From Deltaproteobacteria bacterium (GTDB lineage: Bacteria; Myxococcota_A; Polyangia; Fen-1088): 64,000 bases of DNA. Below the pieces are notes generated by a model. That model made no database searches, was not told the DNA's origin, and worked only from the letters and a program-made list of their open reading frames with translations. Location: NCBI GenBank assembly GCA_016935975.1, contig JAFGPX010000145.1, positions 1-64,000 on the forward strand. Direction: 5' to 3'. The translations under genes were made by a program, and so were the position numbers. Shown in pieces: positions 54,205 to 61,783 of this stretch (position 1 is the first letter of the stretch; each line of letters opens with the position of its first letter).

Positions 54205-56361
54205 TCAGGCTCGTCGGAGATTGGCCAGCGCGGCCGCCGCGCACAGGGCCGCTCCCAGCCCGGCCACGGGAAGCAGCCCGAGCAGCGGGATGGCGAGCAT
54301 GGTCACGAGCAGAGCGGCCCCCGCGGCACCGGCCAGATCCCAGGCGTAGATGCGTGCGGCGGCATGGCCGCGCGCCGAGGCTTCGACCGCCAAGGGGTAG
54401 ACCGCGCCCGTGGTCGCGCCGACGAGCACGATGCCCAGCACGACGGCCGGTCCCGCGAGTGCGGGCAGGCTCTGCCCGATGATCAGAAGCCCTGCCGCGA
54501 GCGAGGCGACCGCCGCGGCGAGAGCGAGCGCGGCGGCGAGGGCGCGCTCGCGGTCGAGGAAGCGCGAGGCGAGCAGCGCCCCGGCGGCCATGCCGGCCAT
54601 GAAACCGGCGAGCATGCCGCCGAGCGCGTGGTAGAGGTGCCCAACCAGGGCTTGGAAGCCGAGAAGCAGCACGATCTCCAGCGACATGCCCGTGGCCCCG
54701 GCCGCGGCCGCCGCGAACCCGGGCGCCCGGCCGCCGCGCCGCAGGGCGAAGGCGAGGCCGGCCAGCGCCAAGATGGCGCCCGGGAAGAGCCATCCCACCC
54801 ACGGCCGGCGCACGAACCCGAGGGCGGCGCGGCCGAGCTTCGGCGAGATCCGCTCCAGTTGCTCGATGACGCCGAACAAGTAGATCACCGGACGAAAATC
54901 CCGGTTCTCGATCTGCGGGGCTGCGGCCAGGCCGCGCCGATACCATTGCACGTGCAGCGGCAGCAAGCGGTCGAATAGCCACGCCTGCCCGATGTGCAGC
55001 GGACGCAGGCCGCGCTCGCCGAGCCGTCGCACCAAGAGATCCGGGCGCGCCTCCACGGCCGCCGCGGAAGCCCAGAAAACCGTCTGCGCGCCCGGCGCCA
55101 CGCCGACCTCGGGAAACACCGCGGCCAGGGCCGTCAGCAAGGAGGCGTGCCGCTGCCGCGCGGCTGGATCCAAATAGGCGTCCCCGCCCGGCGTCACGAG
55201 GGCGAGGATGCCACCGGGGGCCAGCGCCCGGCGCGCGTCCGCGAGGCATTCGCGCGTCGACAAGCGGGCCACCAGCGCGTTCTGTGCCACGGGCAGGTTG
55301 ACGAGGACGACGTCGTAGCGCCCGGCGGCTGCGCGCAGGAGCGCGCGGCCATCCCGGCTAGCGGCAGCAACGCGCGCGTCGGCCAGGGCGGCCCGGGTGC
55401 GCTCGTCGGCATAGCGGCGCGCCAGCGCCAGGAGCGCCGGATCCATCTCCGCGTAGTCGAGCGCCTCGGGCCGATGCTCGAGGGCGAGCGCCAAGCCGCC
55501 GCCCAGCCCGCCGCCCGCCATCAGCACCCGGCGCGGGCGTGGATGCAGCAGCATGGGCAGGTGTGTGGTTTCCTCCGCGGCGATCGCGTCCTCGCTGGTG
55601 AAGAGCAGGACGCCGTCGTGGAAGAACACCCGCTGCTCGCCGCGCGCCACCACGGACAGAAGCCCGTAGCGCGAGGGCTGCACGGCGAGCACGCGCTCGC
55701 CGGGAAAGCGGGCACGGACGAGCGATCGCTCCACGGCCGGACAGGCCACCAGAGCGACGAGGGTCGCCGCCGCCGCCAGCCCGACGCCACGCTTGTGGGG
55801 CCACAGCACGGCTGCCCCCGCTGCCGCCGAGGCCGTGCCCGCGAGACACAGGATCCACCCGGCCGCCAAGTACTCGGCCAGCAGCGCGTGGAACAGCAAG
55901 CCCGCCACGGCCGCGCCCGCGGTTTCCGCGACGTAGATGGCCGTGGCCCGGCCCTCCCCCGCAAGCGCCGCCGCCCAGGCGAACGACAAGCCGCCCAGCG
56001 CGCAAGCCGGCAGCAGAGCCGTAAAGGACACGAGCAGGAGGAGCGTGAGGGACGGCGCCTGCCCCAACGCGCCCGTGCTCGCGAAGCGGGTGAGCCACAA
56101 GGAGCCCAGGAGCAGAAGCGGCGACAAGACGAGCAGATGCGCCAGCCGAACCGCGGGCCGCGCACCGGCGAACCTCGCCCCGAGCCCGCTCAGAAGGCCC
56201 GTGAGGCACAACCAAAGAAAGAGCACGAGCCCGAGCACCAGCTCGTTGCCCTGCGACAAGGCGAGGATCTCGCGCAACATAACCACCTGCGCCAGCAGCG
56301 CCGCGGCCCCCGCGGCCGCGATCGCCCGGCGGAGGGCGGCTTGGCTCGGAACTAGCTCCAT
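54205..56361 (-). CDS. Membrane-fused spermidine synthase-like protein
   Basis: N- and C-terminal multi-TM halves around a spermidine synthase-like core HDGVLLFTSEDAIAAEETTHLPMLLHPRPRRVLMAGGGLGGGLALALEH...LDYAEMDPALLALARRY. Confidence 0.85.
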   Translation of the reverse strand: MELVPSQAALRRAIAAAGAAALLAQVVMLREILALSQGNELVLGLVLFLWLCLTGLLSGLGARFAGARPAVRLAHLLVLSPLLLLGSLWLTRFASTGALGQAPSLTLLLLVSFTALLPACALGGLSFAWAAALAGEGRATAIYVAETAGAAVAGLLFHALLAEYLAAGWILCLAGTASAAAGAAVLWPHKRGVGLAAAATLVALVACPAVERSLVRARFPGERVLAVQPSRYGLLSVVARGEQRVFFHDGVLLFTSEDAIAAEETTHLPMLLHPRPRRVLMAGGGLGGGLALALEHRPEALDYAEMDPALLALARRYADERTRAALADARVAAASRDGRALLRAAAGRYDVVLVNLPVAQNALVARLSTRECLADARRALAPGGILALVTPGGDAYLDPAARQRHASLLTALAAVFPEVGVAPGAQTVFWASAAAVEARPDLLVRRLGERGLRPLHIGQAWLFDRLLPLHVQWYRRGLAAAPQIENRDFRPVIYLFGVIEQLERISPKLGRAALGFVRRPWVGWLFPGAILALAGLAFALRRGGRAPGFAAAAAGATGMSLEIVLLLGFQALVGHLYHALGGMLAGFMAGMAAGALLASRFLDRERALAAALALAAAVASLAAGLLIIGQSLPALAGPAVVLGIVLVGATTGAVYPLAVEASARGHAAARIYAWDLAGAAGAALLVTMLAIPLLGLLPVAGLGAALCAAAALANLRRA

Positions 56362-57461
56362 ACGCCGGGGATTCCAAACCCGCAGAACTCGCAGCGACCG
56401 TTCTTGATGTGCATGCCTTCGAGCTCGAAGCCCCGCCGCGCCACCACGGTCTTGCCGCAGCTCGGGCAGATGGTGTCTTCGCCGGACAGGCCCGGGACGT
56501 TGCCGGTGTAGACGAAGCGCAGGCCCTCGGCCATGCCGATCTCGCGACAGCGAATCAAGGTCGCGTTGGGCGTGGGCGGCACGTTCTTCATCTGGTATTC
56601 GGGATGGAAGCGCGTGAAGTGCAGCGGCACGTCCCGGCCCAGGTGGCCTTTCACCCAGCGGCACATGGCGCGGATCTCCTTCTCGCCGTCGTTCTGGCCG
56701 GGGATGCACAGGTGCACCAGCTCCAGCCACACGCCGCTTCTGGCGATCACCTCCAGGGTCTTGAGCACGGGCTTGAGCTCGCCCTTGCACAGCCGCCGGT
56801 AGTAGTCCTCGTCAAAGCCCTTGAGGTCGACCTTGATGGCGTCGAGGTGCTCGAGCACCTCTTGCATGGGCGCGGCCTCGCCCGAGCCGCCGGTGACCAT
56901 GGTTGCGGCCACGCCGGCCTTGTGCGCCGCCTTGGCCGTGTCGATGCAGTACTCGAGAAAGACGATGGGCTCGGAGTAGGTGAACGTCACGCAGGCGCCG
57001 TAGCCCTTGGCCATGGCCACGACCTCGTCGGGCGGCATGAAGTGGAAGTCCACGTCCTCCGGCCGGGACTGCGAGATGTCCCAATTCTGGCAGCACTTGC
57101 ATTCCATGTTGCAGCCCGCGGTGGCGATGGAGAAGGCGCGGCTGCCCGGCCGGAAATGGAAGAAGGGCTTCTTTTCGATGGGATCGACGTGCACGGCGCA
57201 GGGCTGGCCCCAGACGAGGGTGAAGTACTCGCCGCCGCGGTTTTCGCGCACGCCGCAGAAGCCGCGCTCGCGATCGTCGACCTGGCAGTGCTTCGGGCAA
57301 AGCTGGCATTCGACGCGCTTGCCGGGCAGCTTCTTCCAGAAGCGCGCCGGAAAGGCGCGCGGCGCGCCGCCGGCCAAGGCGCGACGGCCGCCCAAGGACC
57401 CCGCCGAGGCGGCCACGGCGCAGCCGCCGCAGGTCAGGAAGAAGCCACGTCGCGAGAGCAC
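56352..57461 (-). CDS. amrS: AmmeMemoRadiSam system radical SAM enzyme, with Tat-like signal
   Basis: CxxxCxxC in ATAGCNMECKCCQNWDISQ; KRVECQLCPKHCQVDDRERGFCGVREN; N-terminal SRRGFFLTCGGCAVAASAGSLGG. Confidence 0.92.
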   Translation of the reverse strand: MLSRRGFFLTCGGCAVAASAGSLGGRRALAGGAPRAFPARFWKKLPGKRVECQLCPKHCQVDDRERGFCGVRENRGGEYFTLVWGQPCAVHVDPIEKKPFFHFRPGSRAFSIATAGCNMECKCCQNWDISQSRPEDVDFHFMPPDEVVAMAKGYGACVTFTYSEPIVFLEYCIDTAKAAHKAGVAATMVTGGSGEAAPMQEVLEHLDAIKVDLKGFDEDYYRRLCKGELKPVLKTLEVIARSGVWLELVHLCIPGQNDGEKEIRAMCRWVKGHLGRDVPLHFTRFHPEYQMKNVPPTPNATLIRCREIGMAEGLRFVYTGNVPGLSGEDTICPSCGKTVVARRGFELEGMHIKNGRCEFCGFGIPGVWS

Positions 57462-57463
57462 GG

Positions 57464-58546
57464 TCAGACCTCGATTTCCACGATGTCGATGCGCGCGCGA
57501 TCGGCTTCGCCCAGGCCGAGCTTGCCGGCCGTCGCGAGATGGGTGGGGAAGAGGCCCTCCTTGTCGAGCGGCGGCAGGCGACGCTTGGCGCGCAGATCCT
57601 CGAGAATGCCGAGCCCCACGGTGTCGATCGCGACCAGGTCGGTGGCGAAGAGCAGCAGGTTGGCCACCTCGGCGGCGCCGGGCTGGTAGCTCGGGCCGCC
57701 CTCCACCACCGGACGGAGCGCGTCCATGATGACCAGCCGCTGCTTGTCGCGGATCGCGGGAATGGCATTGACCTCGGCGATGTACGGGTCGCACTTGTAA
57801 AGGTGCATCTTGTTGGGGTTGTGGATGCAGCCGAAGTTGTTCTTGAGCGCGCCGGTCATGCCCGAAAGCATGTGCTGCTTGAGCACGGGCAGGTTGATCA
57901 CGCCATCGACCTGACGAGTCAGCACGCGAGCCAGGCGCGACGCCGAAGACGGCATGAGCGCGATCTCCTCCTCGTGGCCGGCCTCGTCGTTGCCCACGCA
58001 CCGGTAGCCGTCGCGCCGATTCGCGCCAAACCCGGACTCGGTCAGGTCGCGCTTGAAGCGATCGAAGACGATCTGTTGGCGCGGCTCGATGTCCGCCTTG
58101 CCGAGCAGCGCGGACAGCTCGTCCACCAGCTCGAAATGCGTGGCCGCCTGTCGCGCCGCCAGGCCGTTGATCTTGAGCCCCACGCGCTCGCCGGCGCGCA
58201 CGTAGCTTGCGAGCGCCCGGGCCGCGTCCTTCTCGCCGGCAAGCGCCAGAAGACCGGCCTCGAGCATGGCCCCGAGCGCCCCGCGGTCGGCGTCATAGCC
58301 CTGGGTCAACGCCCGGCGCGCCTTGACCACCACGACGCGCGGCTTGCCGCCCGCGGCCACCACGCGCGCCGCCTCGGTTCGGGTCGCCGCCGTGGTCACG
58401 GACGACGTGGCCTGCCCGGTCGCCGGCGCGCTTTGCTGCGGCTGCTTGCCGGCGCAGGAAGAGCTGCACCCCGCGGCGGCGAATGCGCCCGCGCCCAGCG
58501 CCTGCAGGAAGCGGCGTCGTTCCGGACTGTTGCCGTCCCGATTCAC
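57464..58546 (-). CDS. DUF362-domain protein with Tat-like signal
   Basis: RRRFLQALGAGAFAAAGC; KINGLA...VDGVINLPVLKQHMLSGMTGALKNNFGCIHNPNKMH; LVIMDALRPVVEGGP. Confidence 0.88.
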   Translation of the reverse strand: MNRDGNSPERRRFLQALGAGAFAAAGCSSSCAGKQPQQSAPATGQATSSVTTAATRTEAARVVAAGGKPRVVVVKARRALTQGYDADRGALGAMLEAGLLALAGEKDAARALASYVRAGERVGLKINGLAARQAATHFELVDELSALLGKADIEPRQQIVFDRFKRDLTESGFGANRRDGYRCVGNDEAGHEEEIALMPSSASRLARVLTRQVDGVINLPVLKQHMLSGMTGALKNNFGCIHNPNKMHLYKCDPYIAEVNAIPAIRDKQRLVIMDALRPVVEGGPSYQPGAAEVANLLLFATDLVAIDTVGLGILEDLRAKRRLPPLDKEGLFPTHLATAGKLGLGEADRARIDIVEIEV

Positions 58547-58570
58547 GAAGCGAAGTATAGCGCCGGATCA

Positions 58571-58692
58571 TCACCTCGCCCCACGAAGTGGGGAGAGGTC
58601 GCCGAGCGCAGCGAGGCGGGTGAGGGGGGCTTCCGCGTCCGGCCTTGTCCCCTCACCCTCGCCCTCTCCCCGGCTGCGCCGGGGCGAGGGCA
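58571..58692. repeat. REP-like palindrome cluster (ccctcaccctcgccctctccccggctgcgccggggcgaggg)
   Basis: Nested hairpins between the DUF362 and AmrBA genes, related to 17855-17933 and 60525-60570. Confidence 0.8.
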
Positions 58693-58696
58693 TGGG

Positions 58697-60331
58697 CTAC
58701 CTATGCTCGTCTTCTCCGAAGACGATGGCCTCGTAGACCTTGTACTCGGCCTTCTTCCACGCGTCGGCGGGCAGGCCGGCCTTGCGCGCCAGGTGGCGCA
58801 GCGTCGTCTCGCGATCCCAGCCCTGCTCGGGCGCCACCTGCGGCAGGAAGGTGGCGCTGTTCCAGCCCACGCCCAGGATGATGCCGTGCTTGCCGATGAC
58901 GATCTCCTCGGGCCCCTTGACGGGCACAGGCGGGGTCAGCACCGAGATCTCGATGGTGACGAAGGGCAGCTCGGCCACGCCGACCGTGTGCGGAAAACGC
59001 GAGTCCTCCAGCGCCGCGCTGGCCGCCCGCCGGGCCACGGTGTCATATACGGAGTCGACCGGCTCGATCGTGCCGATGCACCCGCGCAGGTCGTCGCCGC
59101 GGGCCTGGCACCGGCTGTCCCCGCCCATCTTGCACTTCAAGGTCACGAAGGCGCCGGCCTTGCGCGAGAGAGACGGGACGATGGGAACCGCCTTCTTCAC
59201 CTCCGCGTCGAACGAGCCCTTGCGCACGGACATTTCCAGCGACGTGCGCGCCAGCTTAAGCAGCGTTGTCCTCTCCTCTTGGCTCAGTGGAAACATCTTC
59301 TCTCCCCCTGCCCGGGCGGCTTCCAGCCTCGAAGCCCGGGGCCATTTGCCGGTGAACGCGATATCGATGTAGCTCACGGTGCTCGACCAATCGCCGGTCA
59401 CGTCGCCCGAGGTGTAGCGACTCGTGACCTGGCCGCGCACGCCCGAGATCTTCCCGAGCAATTCCAAGAGCAGGCCAATCGGCCGCAGGCCGCAAATCGT
59501 CGTTCCCGTCTTCTCCGCGTGCGCGAGCAGACCGCGCCGGTCGAGCTTCAGGATCCGCTCGACCGAGGCATCGTCGACGCGCGCCAGGCGCTCCTGGACG
59601 CTGCCCTTGCCGGCAGGCACCTCGTAGCCGTAGTTGTCCCCGCGGTGGGTGAAGTCGCTCGAAGCCACGACCAGGGTCTGCTCGTCGACGATCTCGGCCA
59701 GCACCGAGGCCAGCTCGGCGTAGTCGGCCTCGCGCATATCGCCGACGAGCATGGGCACCAAGGTGAAGCTCGGCAATACGCGCTGGAGCAGCGGCAACTG
59801 GATCTCCAGCGAGTGCTCCTCGTCTTCGGCCCGCTCGACCGCGCCGACCAGAGCCGAACGCCGCAAGCGCGCCACCGCCGCCGCGTCGAGCGGAATCAGG
59901 CCGAGCGGCGTCTCGAAGTGCGTGACGTCGGGAATCGATGCTCCGCGTAGCGGAAAACGGTGGGGCACGGCCAGAACGATCACGCGACGGACGTCCTGCC
60001 CGCGCACGAGCGCGTATCCCGTGGCCGCGGCCTTGCCCGAGAACCGATAGCCCGCGTGCGGCGAAATGAGCGCCATGACCTTGCCGTCGAGCTTGGGCGG
60101 CTTGGTGTCGGCGAAGATCCGATCGAGATCCGCGGCCAGGCGCTTCCCGTCGCCCGGATACCACGAGCCCGCAACCTGCGCCCGGCGGATGCGCTTGGTC
60201 TCGGGCGCCGGAGCAGGCTTCGGCGCGGCCGCCGGCTTGGCCGCGGTCTTGGTCGACGCCGCCTGGCTGGCCGCCTGCTTCGTGCAAGCACACGCCGCGA
60301 AGGCGAGCCCGAGAGCAAGAAGGCGGGCCAC
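58697..60331 (-). CDS. AmmeMemoRadiSam system AmrB (Memo-like) fused to AmrA (AMMECR1), lipoprotein-like N terminus
   Basis: Memo-like AGSWYPGDGKRLAADLDRIF...ALISPHAGYRFSGKAAATGYALV...SSDFTHRGDNYGYEVP; AMMECR1 FVTLKCKMGGDSRCQARGDDLRGCIGTIEPVDSVYDTVARRAASAALEDSRF. GTG start proposed (VARLLALGLAFAACAC). Confidence 0.9.
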   Translation of the reverse strand: MARLLALGLAFAACACTKQAASQAASTKTAAKPAAAPKPAPAPETKRIRRAQVAGSWYPGDGKRLAADLDRIFADTKPPKLDGKVMALISPHAGYRFSGKAAATGYALVRGQDVRRVIVLAVPHRFPLRGASIPDVTHFETPLGLIPLDAAAVARLRRSALVGAVERAEDEEHSLEIQLPLLQRVLPSFTLVPMLVGDMREADYAELASVLAEIVDEQTLVVASSDFTHRGDNYGYEVPAGKGSVQERLARVDDASVERILKLDRRGLLAHAEKTGTTICGLRPIGLLLELLGKISGVRGQVTSRYTSGDVTGDWSSTVSYIDIAFTGKWPRASRLEAARAGGEKMFPLSQEERTTLLKLARTSLEMSVRKGSFDAEVKKAVPIVPSLSRKAGAFVTLKCKMGGDSRCQARGDDLRGCIGTIEPVDSVYDTVARRAASAALEDSRFPHTVGVAELPFVTIEISVLTPPVPVKGPEEIVIGKHGIILGVGWNSATFLPQVAPEQGWDRETTLRHLARKAGLPADAWKKAEYKVYEAIVFGEDEHR

Positions 60332-60524
60332 TCGCGTGGGGAGCCGCCGAGCTTCGCTCGGCGCGGACCATCGCGGGAGGGCATGGCGAGGCCGCGCGCA
60401 GCGCGGGGGTGGCAGGGCGGGAGGCGGGTGCCGAGGGAAAAGCGAACCATCCCAGGGTCCCCACAGCAATCGATGCATGCCCGCATGCTTGCGCCGGATG
60501 GTTGGAGTGTCAACCGTGAGCCTC

Positions 60525-60570
60525 CGTCCCCTTCTCCCCGCTTGCGGGGAGAAGGTTGGGATGAGGGGCG
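60525..60570. repeat. REP-like palindrome (ccccttctccccgcttgcggggagaaggttgggatgagggg)
   Basis: Hairpin tctccccgc-tt-gcggggaga; same family as 17855 and 58571. Confidence 0.75.
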
Positions 60571-60693
60571 CCCGCCGCATTGCTCGCCGAAGTTCGATTC
60601 GGTCAAGCCCCCTTCCGCCATCGAGGTTGAGATGGTCCCTGCGCGGGTTGTGGGAGCGACTGCATAGACGATCGTGCCAAGCATCATCTATGC

Positions 60694-60725: not shown

Positions 60726-61142
60726 GTGAAGAATGCAAACGCAGTTGCGCTCGGCCGACTCGGCGGCCTGCAGGGCGGGCCTAGCCGCGCCCGCAGTCTG
60801 AGCCAGGCGCGCCGGCGCGCAATCGGGCGTCGGGCTGCGGCGGCTCGCTGGCAGGGCACGCTTCCCGAGTTGCTCCGGCCGCTCTTCTGGCAGAACCGCA
60901 TCGAGGACATCAGCCTCGCCAAGCATGTCGATCACGTCGTGTTGCTGGTGCTCACGAACGGAAACGGGCGGCAGGTCAACTGGCTTCGGCGCCGCCTGGA
61001 CGACGACGGCATCCGCCGCTGGATCATCGAGCGCAAAGGCAGAGGGCTGACGCGTGCGCAGATGACGCGCTGGGTGTCGCGGCGCGCCACCACCCGCTGG
61101 CAGGCCGGCGACGCCTACGCCCGCATGTGGGAGGAGCGGTGA
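60726..61142 (+). CDS. DUF6922-like antitoxin-type protein
   Basis: N-terminal NANAVALGRLGGLQGGPSRARSLSQARRRAIGRRAAAARW; then LPELLRPLFWQNRIEDISLAKHVDHVVLLVLTNGNGRQVNWLRRRLDDDGIRRWI, a DUF6922-like pattern. Confidence 0.75.
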   Translation: MKNANAVALGRLGGLQGGPSRARSLSQARRRAIGRRAAAARWQGTLPELLRPLFWQNRIEDISLAKHVDHVVLLVLTNGNGRQVNWLRRRLDDDGIRRWIIERKGRGLTRAQMTRWVSRRATTRWQAGDAYARMWEER

Positions 61143-61783
61143 AGGCACGCGGGCTTCATCCCGAGGTGCTTACCGCGGCGCAACGCAGGGTCCTCAAGGC
61201 GTCGACCGTCCCGGTGCGGTCATGGGAAGCGTACCTGGCCGGCGGTGCTGCGGCTGGCCTGCACCTGGGCCATCGACGCTCGGATGACTTCGACTGGTTC
61301 ACGCCCGCCACCGTCAATCCGGGCCAACTCCTGCAACAGCTCGAGAGTACGAGACTCCACGTCCAGGTGACCCGGAATGAGGAGGGGACCTTCCTTGGCT
61401 TCGTCGACGACGTGAAGTTCAGTGTGTTCCGATATCGATATCCGCTCGTGGCTCCACTGGTTTCGATGGGTGGGGCGCAGATCGCTTCCCTGCCAGACAT
61501 CGCAGCCATGAAGCTGGTGGCGGTCGTACAACGCGCCGAGAAGCGAGACTACGTGGACATTCATGCCATCCTGCTCGCACGCGAGATGTCGTTGGCCGAA
61601 ATGTTCCGCGCCCTCGTCAAGAAGTCACCCCAACTCGATCCCAAGGTCGCCCAGCGGGCGCTCGGCCATTTCGCCGACGCCGAGAAGACCAAGATGCCGC
61701 AAATGCTCAACGCCACCACTTGGGAAAAGGTCAAGGCCGATCTCGCTCGTGAGCTGAGCAGCTACGTAACTCGGAGGAAGTAG
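61139..61783 (+). CDS. AbiEii/AbiGii-family nucleotidyltransferase toxin
   Basis: AYLAGGAAAGLHLGHRRSDDFDWFT (GG...RxSxDxD nucleotidyltransferase motif); GTGA overlap with the upstream gene. Confidence 0.85.
   Translation: MKARGLHPEVLTAAQRRVLKASTVPVRSWEAYLAGGAAAGLHLGHRRSDDFDWFTPATVNPGQLLQQLESTRLHVQVTRNEEGTFLGFVDDVKFSVFRYRYPLVAPLVSMGGAQIASLPDIAAMKLVAVVQRAEKRDYVDIHAILLAREMSLAEMFRALVKKSPQLDPKVAQRALGHFADAEKTKMPQMLNATTWEKVKADLARELSSYVTRRK

Follow-up and report, generated by a model that had tools for sequence, protein, structure and literature searches.

The stretch of DNA analysed here (hereafter the window: 64,000 nt, positions 1 to 64,000 of contig JAFGPX010000145.1 from a Deltaproteobacteria bacterium, assembly GCA_016935975.1) carries a four-gene set related to the AmmeMemoRadiSam (AMR) system, whose products bear predicted export signals or are predicted to span the membrane. 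Judged from sequence, we slightly favour the view that these genes form an envelope-located AMR paralogue, fed with electrons across the membrane and separate from the canonical cytosolic set. Comparison of related loci supports a conserved, paralogous and export-tagged module with a membrane partner predicted to face outward. The genes encode, in this order on the minus strand, a fusion of AmrB (Memo) and AmrA (AMMECR1), a DUF362 protein, the radical S-adenosylmethionine (SAM) enzyme AmrS and a membrane spermidine synthase-like protein that we call SpdMem. The spacing between the fusion and DUF362 genes is 150 nt, and the SpdMem ATG overlaps the 3' end of the AmrS gene by 10 nt. This layout agrees with the preliminary description of the window, and all the family assignments lie above their cut-offs: AmrB scores 220 bits with TIGR04336 (cut-off 26), AmrA 138 bits with TIGR04335 (cut-off 99), DUF362 75.8 bits with PF04015 (cut-off 24), AmrS 378 bits with TIGR04337 (curated cut-off 220) and SpdMem 46.5 bits with PF01564 (cut-off 22.9). 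The genes and their principal features are as follows (Tat, twin-arginine translocation).

58697 to 60331, minus strand: AmrB (Memo)-AmrA (AMMECR1) fusion, predicted lipoprotein, GTG start at 60331 (TIGR04336 and TIGR04335)
60290 to 60331, minus strand: lipoprotein-type signal VARLLALGLAFAAC of AmrB-AmrA, read from the sequence, with a conserved hydrophobic leader
57464 to 58546, minus strand: DUF362 protein, GTG start at 58546 (PF04015)
58466 to 58546, minus strand: DUF362 leader with twin-arginine motif and lipobox ERRRFLQALGAGAFAAAGC, read from the sequence
56352 to 57461, minus strand: radical SAM enzyme AmrS, GTG start 2 nt past the DUF362 stop (TIGR04337)
57348 to 57461, minus strand: Tat leader of AmrS VLSRRGFFLTCGGCAVAASAGSLGGRRALAGGAPRA..., twin-arginine SRRGFF followed by a hydrophobic stretch (control rate 1.4-3%)
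57090 to 57113, minus strand: CX3CX2C [4Fe-4S]/SAM cysteine motif of AmrS (C119, C123 and C126 of protein P0003)
54205 to 56361, minus strand: SpdMem, membrane spermidine synthase-like protein, ATG start (PF01564)
54793 to 55731, minus strand: central aminopropyltransferase-like domain of SpdMem (residues 211-523), predicted by the positive-inside rule to lie outside the cytosol

The evidence for export comes first from AmrS, which we compared across 80 loci from related genomes and some 80 additional AmrS of the same phylum. AmrS groups were set by similarity of the core, without use of the leader. The leader test required RRx[FLIVMYW] and, after it, a hydrophobic stretch free of charged residues, and was scored only in the sequence preceding the AmrS core. 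A Tat-type leader was detected in 82 of the 87 members of the window's clade versus none of the 74 other AmrS, and the background in the same loci was 34/1111 for open frames and 48/3333 for random pieces of unrelated frames (1.4-3%). Among the exceptions within the clade, a twin-arginine motif is visible by eye in L080, L088 and L094, and the starts are unresolved in L067 and L079. The window's own AmrS begins with a twin-arginine motif and a moderately hydrophobic stretch and is thus a predicted Tat substrate, as initially described; a TatC gene was found in its genome. Given that the assembly is a draft metagenome and that the GTG starts have no obvious strong ribosome sites, one may ask if misassigned starts or a chance RR motif have made an ordinary cytosolic AMR set look exported. 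We rejected this, the least credible of the alternatives, on the basis of the control rates and of the conservation of leaders just ahead of the core across phyla, against their absence from canonical AmrS. The preliminary description would have been undermined by translation starts downstream of the signal segments, but for AmrS such a start is improbable, given that homologues keep the RRxFLK motif at similar spacing from the core. The AmrS at L181:3019-4302, scored leaderless by the test, has a longer twin-arginine leader with a CAACH insert before the core; this insert might bind heme covalently, in a protein of the radical SAM family.

The lipobox-like leader noticed earlier on the AmrB-AmrA fusion also proved to be a group trait. 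Hydrophobic signal-type leaders are present on AmrB in 29/31 homologues of the Tat group and in 9/9 of a sister clade whose AmrS are leaderless, versus 0/27 canonical AmrB. The fusion is thus predicted to be a Sec/lipoprotein substrate. The Memo metal-site motifs SPHAG, SSDFTH and CG are kept in the window fusion and in most of its homologues, and fusion to AmrA is almost universal for AmrB of the Tat group. In Aminicenantes and Zixibacteria, AmrB-AmrA is often not adjacent to AmrS, and AmrB is present in all 18 such genomes searched. Where a second AmrB locus unlinked to AmrS was retrieved, it encodes an AmrB-AmrA fusion with a signal-type leader in 13 of 14 cases. Within the window's family, genomes with a Tat-type AmrS also encode a second AmrB that matches strongly and sits in a frame long enough for a fusion; the exceptions are G001 (74% complete, with the operon running off the contig end) and G013 (split between contigs). 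Genomes of the family without AmrS have at most weak AmrB matches (<90 bits).

The window set is a second, paralogous system, because the same genome also harbours a canonical, leaderless AmrS (590 bits) adjoining a leaderless AmrB on contig C121. In a maximum-likelihood tree of AmrS, the window enzyme falls in the Tat clade and the Tat label needs a single change. The Tat clade and its leaderless sister form one clade separate from canonical AmrS (Shimodaira-Hasegawa-like approximate likelihood-ratio test support 99); the tree results from a quick search, and support is only 78 for the branch that carries just the labelled Tat rows. The CX3CX2C cysteines are 100% conserved in the Tat, sister and canonical groups, and both the N-terminal (C54/C57/C61/C71) and the C-terminal (C334/C337/C359/C362) cysteine clusters are kept at 99-100% in exported AmrS, as in canonical ones. 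By sequence, the closest solved relative of AmrS is the pyruvate formate-lyase activating enzyme (3c8f), which shares the CX3CX2C core and with whose SAM-site positions E166, D214 and K216 align; these residues are kept at or near 100%. The window protein therefore has the hallmarks of the radical SAM superfamily, namely CX3CX2C and the SAM-site residues. It differs from the activating enzyme in its export tag, its extra cysteine clusters at both ends and the absence of a visible glycyl-radical enzyme gene beside it. Two positions distinguish the exported group: residue 212 is Asn in 100% of canonical and Lys in 100% of Tat AmrS, and residue 166 is Asp in 81% of canonical and Glu in 100% of Tat AmrS. 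Because these positions switch while the motif cysteines and SAM-site residues stay, exported AmrS would appear to have an altered substrate and to retain the radical machinery. The same conservation bears on the idea that exported AmrS no longer catalyses radical SAM reactions and instead transfers electrons through its Fe-S centres, or plays a structural part, in an envelope redox complex. Electron-transfer genes nearby and the problematic supply of SAM outside the cell membrane fit such a role, but it would hardly account for the maintenance of those residues, and we consider it very improbable.

Leader-bearing AmrS genes adjoin DUF362 and/or SpdMem genes in most of the 80 loci, consistent with the neighbourhood proposed at the outset, and DUF362-AmrS-SpdMem is a conserved operon among related loci. 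These loci are found in Myxococcota, Acidobacteriota, Aminicenantes, Zixibacteria, Armatimonadota and others, which rules out an exported set restricted to this genome. In about 30 loci, Aminicenantes among them, the exported operon is preceded by a divergently oriented DUF6599 gene (e.g. L040:5778-6716).

The Tat-type signal described for DUF362 is present in the window, yet it is not a general trait of the family. The window shares a leader with Tat and lipobox features with its close relatives and with many Acidobacteria and Armatimonadota (18/61 by the test and two more by eye), whereas in Aminicenantes and Zixibacteria the protein starts directly at its core. We thus discarded the notion that DUF362 is always exported; the signal-less forms may be cytosolic or may be exported together with AmrS. 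Sequence searches of DUF362 against the PDB gave no match. Its AlphaFold model (predicted local distance difference test, pLDDT, 94.5) has the LarA fold and matches malate and lactate racemases of that family, the best PDB hit being the malate racemase 7s91 (E 4.7e-6, template modelling (TM) score 0.52). DUF362 belongs to the LarA/lactate-racemase clan CL0471 of Pfam (PMC11770544). Nevertheless, of 25 genomes that carry the exported set, 19 (the window's included) have LarC, the nickel-pincer cofactor gene; it was not found in the other six, several of which are incomplete. A strict tie between DUF362 and the nickel-pincer cofactor is thus unsupported, and such a role, though possible, is not general. 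The window's draft genome (G000) contains twelve DUF362 matches.

SpdMem is indeed a membrane protein by prediction. Its AlphaFold model (pLDDT 90) places a soluble domain between two sets of seven helices, and that domain has the fold of polyamine aminopropyltransferases (PDB 1uir, TM 0.73-0.74 to the target), which it shares with spermidine synthases and fused major facilitator superfamily-spermidine synthases (PF01564, NF037959). Loops assigned to the inside hold on average 15.1 Lys plus Arg residues versus 4.4 for those outside, with the same orientation in 30/30 homologues. Both termini are thus predicted to be inside and the soluble domain outside, unlike in spermidine synthases. A spermidine synthase function, in contrast, is not supported. 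SpdMem scores 95, 76 and 57 bits with the curated equivalog models, far below their respective cut-offs of 472, 260 and 250, and NLPEP...NRFYT replaces the usual acidic catalytic motif; on these grounds we rejected a true spermidine synthase. Because of these departures, and because its homologues often fail the glycine-rich nucleotide-motif pattern, SpdMem is unlikely to make spermidine.

Genes for membrane electron carriers recur near the exported set and its sister clade. In the latter, L175, L177, L179 and L185 encode single proteins of about 1200 aa in which SpdMem continues at its C-terminal end into an FMN_bind domain and a NosR-like 4Fe-4S membrane module (Fer4_5), and in L165 and L168 a separate FMN_bind/Fer4_5 protein is encoded next to AmrS. 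PMC8238504 assigns proteins of this type to extracytosolic electron transfer via flavins attached by ApbE; AMR-linked members are mentioned neither in its main text nor in that of PMC11334425. Near the exported set, 11 loci of Acidobacteria and Zixibacteria encode another Tat-type DUF362, a polyferredoxin of 560-590 aa, or both. Pairs of a Tat-type DUF362 and a polyferredoxin membrane protein of 560-620 aa recur, some beside the exported set, in L052, L083, L099, L103, L104 and L139/L140, the last being on another contig (C245) of the window's genome. That two unrelated membrane electron carriers occur near this module is the best clue to the chemistry it performs.

The idea that the module acts at the membrane is thus strengthened by leaders that are conserved across phyla and absent from canonical paralogues, by the predicted outward position of the SpdMem domain and by the recurrence of electron-transfer membrane proteins nearby. 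Going further, we infer, as a plausible but tentative model, a radical SAM pathway outside the cytoplasmic membrane, with AmrS, AmrB-AmrA and DUF362 in the envelope. AmrS would be folded and loaded with its [4Fe-4S] cluster inside, exported by Tat, and would then dock with SpdMem and the membrane-anchored AmrB-AmrA, the aminopropyltransferase-like domain of SpdMem being on the same outer face. Electrons might reach AmrS through a transmembrane chain of Fe-S/flavin carriers; relatives have the NosR-like FMN/4Fe-4S protein or the polyferredoxin-DUF362 pair next to the set. SAM could be bound before export or be delivered by SpdMem, which would handle SAM or the product. The radical reaction would take place on an envelope substrate, assumed to be a small metabolite, a lipid or a protein cofactor of the envelope, and the metal-binding AmrB, with AmrA, would perform the step after AmrS. 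In the window, DUF362 would be exported by its own signal; in lineages where it has none, it might travel as a passenger of AmrS.

Several observations weigh against this model. SAM is not known to occur in the periplasm. About two thirds of the loci have a DUF362 without its own signal. The glycine-rich pattern of SpdMem is failed by about a quarter of the Tat-clade proteins and by 7/7 of the sister clade. No FMN_bind match, and so no FMN/NosR conduit, was found in the window's own genome, a difference from NosR-type systems with their flavinylated extracytosolic electron transfer, which the sister-clade proteins resemble. Lastly, and as the chief ground for caution, the sister clade pairs leaderless AmrS with exported AmrB-AmrA, and the cleanest example is G132, an 89% complete draft, in which the only AmrS is leaderless and the only AmrB-AmrA is of lipoprotein type. 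Therefore, the radical step need not occur outside; in the sister clade it may take place inside, with its product crossing the membrane. This opens the way to a metabolite relay, in which a cytosolic or membrane precursor is converted by AmrS, the product is moved or flipped by SpdMem, and the last step falls to exported AmrB-AmrA on the outside; in the Tat clade, export of AmrS would be a later refinement. Both G132 and the sister clade, where leaderless AmrS adjoins lipoprotein AmrB-AmrA and a SpdMem fused to an extracytosolic-type FMN_bind domain, fit such a scheme. However, essentially every Tat-clade AmrS carries an export tag that a relay would not need, and G132 remains a draft genome; we thus regard the relay as unlikely, though worth keeping in mind.

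Still less probable, in our view, is that AmrS completes its radical reaction before export, the target being a folded partner protein or a cofactor that accompanies it through Tat, and the AmrS leader serving only to tether or ship the complex. Tat does carry folded, cofactor-loaded complexes, and the signal-less DUF362 of many lineages could be such a passenger, but the window DUF362 has its own Tat signal. Nor could AmrS act beforehand on folded AmrB-AmrA, because the latter, with its Sec-type leader, would cross the membrane unfolded.

Our preferred reading, an envelope-located paralogue, can be set against the AMR systems known so far. The AmrS, AmrB and AmrA families are themselves known and uncharacterised. 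The window set resembles canonical ones in that all three score above the curated cut-offs in one locus, with the AmrS cysteines and the Memo metal-site motifs kept. It differs in the export signals of AmrS and AmrB-AmrA, canonical sets being leaderless and cytosolic (by habit, as this is not part of the family models), in the addition of DUF362 and SpdMem, and in an AmrS that forms its own clade with group-specific residues. In the open-access papers searched (preprints not covered), neither a function for the bacterial AMR system nor an exported radical SAM enzyme was found. No characterised radical SAM enzyme is known to act outside the cytosol. The preliminary description's view of an undescribed pathway is thus a well-grounded prediction, drawn from sequence comparisons. 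Despite their conservation from archaea to humans, AMMECR1 and Memo have no agreed biochemical function, and an envelope version with an extra membrane protein and electron carriers narrows the possible location of the substrate and gives testable handles. If AmrS is active outside, radical SAM chemistry could no longer be assumed to stay within the cytosol, and both SAM and low-potential electrons would be needed on the far side of the membrane. AMMECR1 is the top-weighted anaerobic Pfam marker in a 2026 study (PMC13386939).

The host genome is a 5.4-Mb draft in 341 contigs, 94% complete; among named relatives, the closest are fen-derived assemblies of Myxococcales bacteria. Just upstream of the operon, a small DUF6922-like gene and an AbiEii-type nucleotidyltransferase gene (60726-61783, plus strand) are likely to form a toxin-antitoxin pair. 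Short G+C-rich inverted repeats of similar sequence are located at 58560-58690, between the AmrB-AmrA and DUF362 genes, and at 60500-60585, upstream of the fusion gene; they resemble dispersed palindromic repeats.

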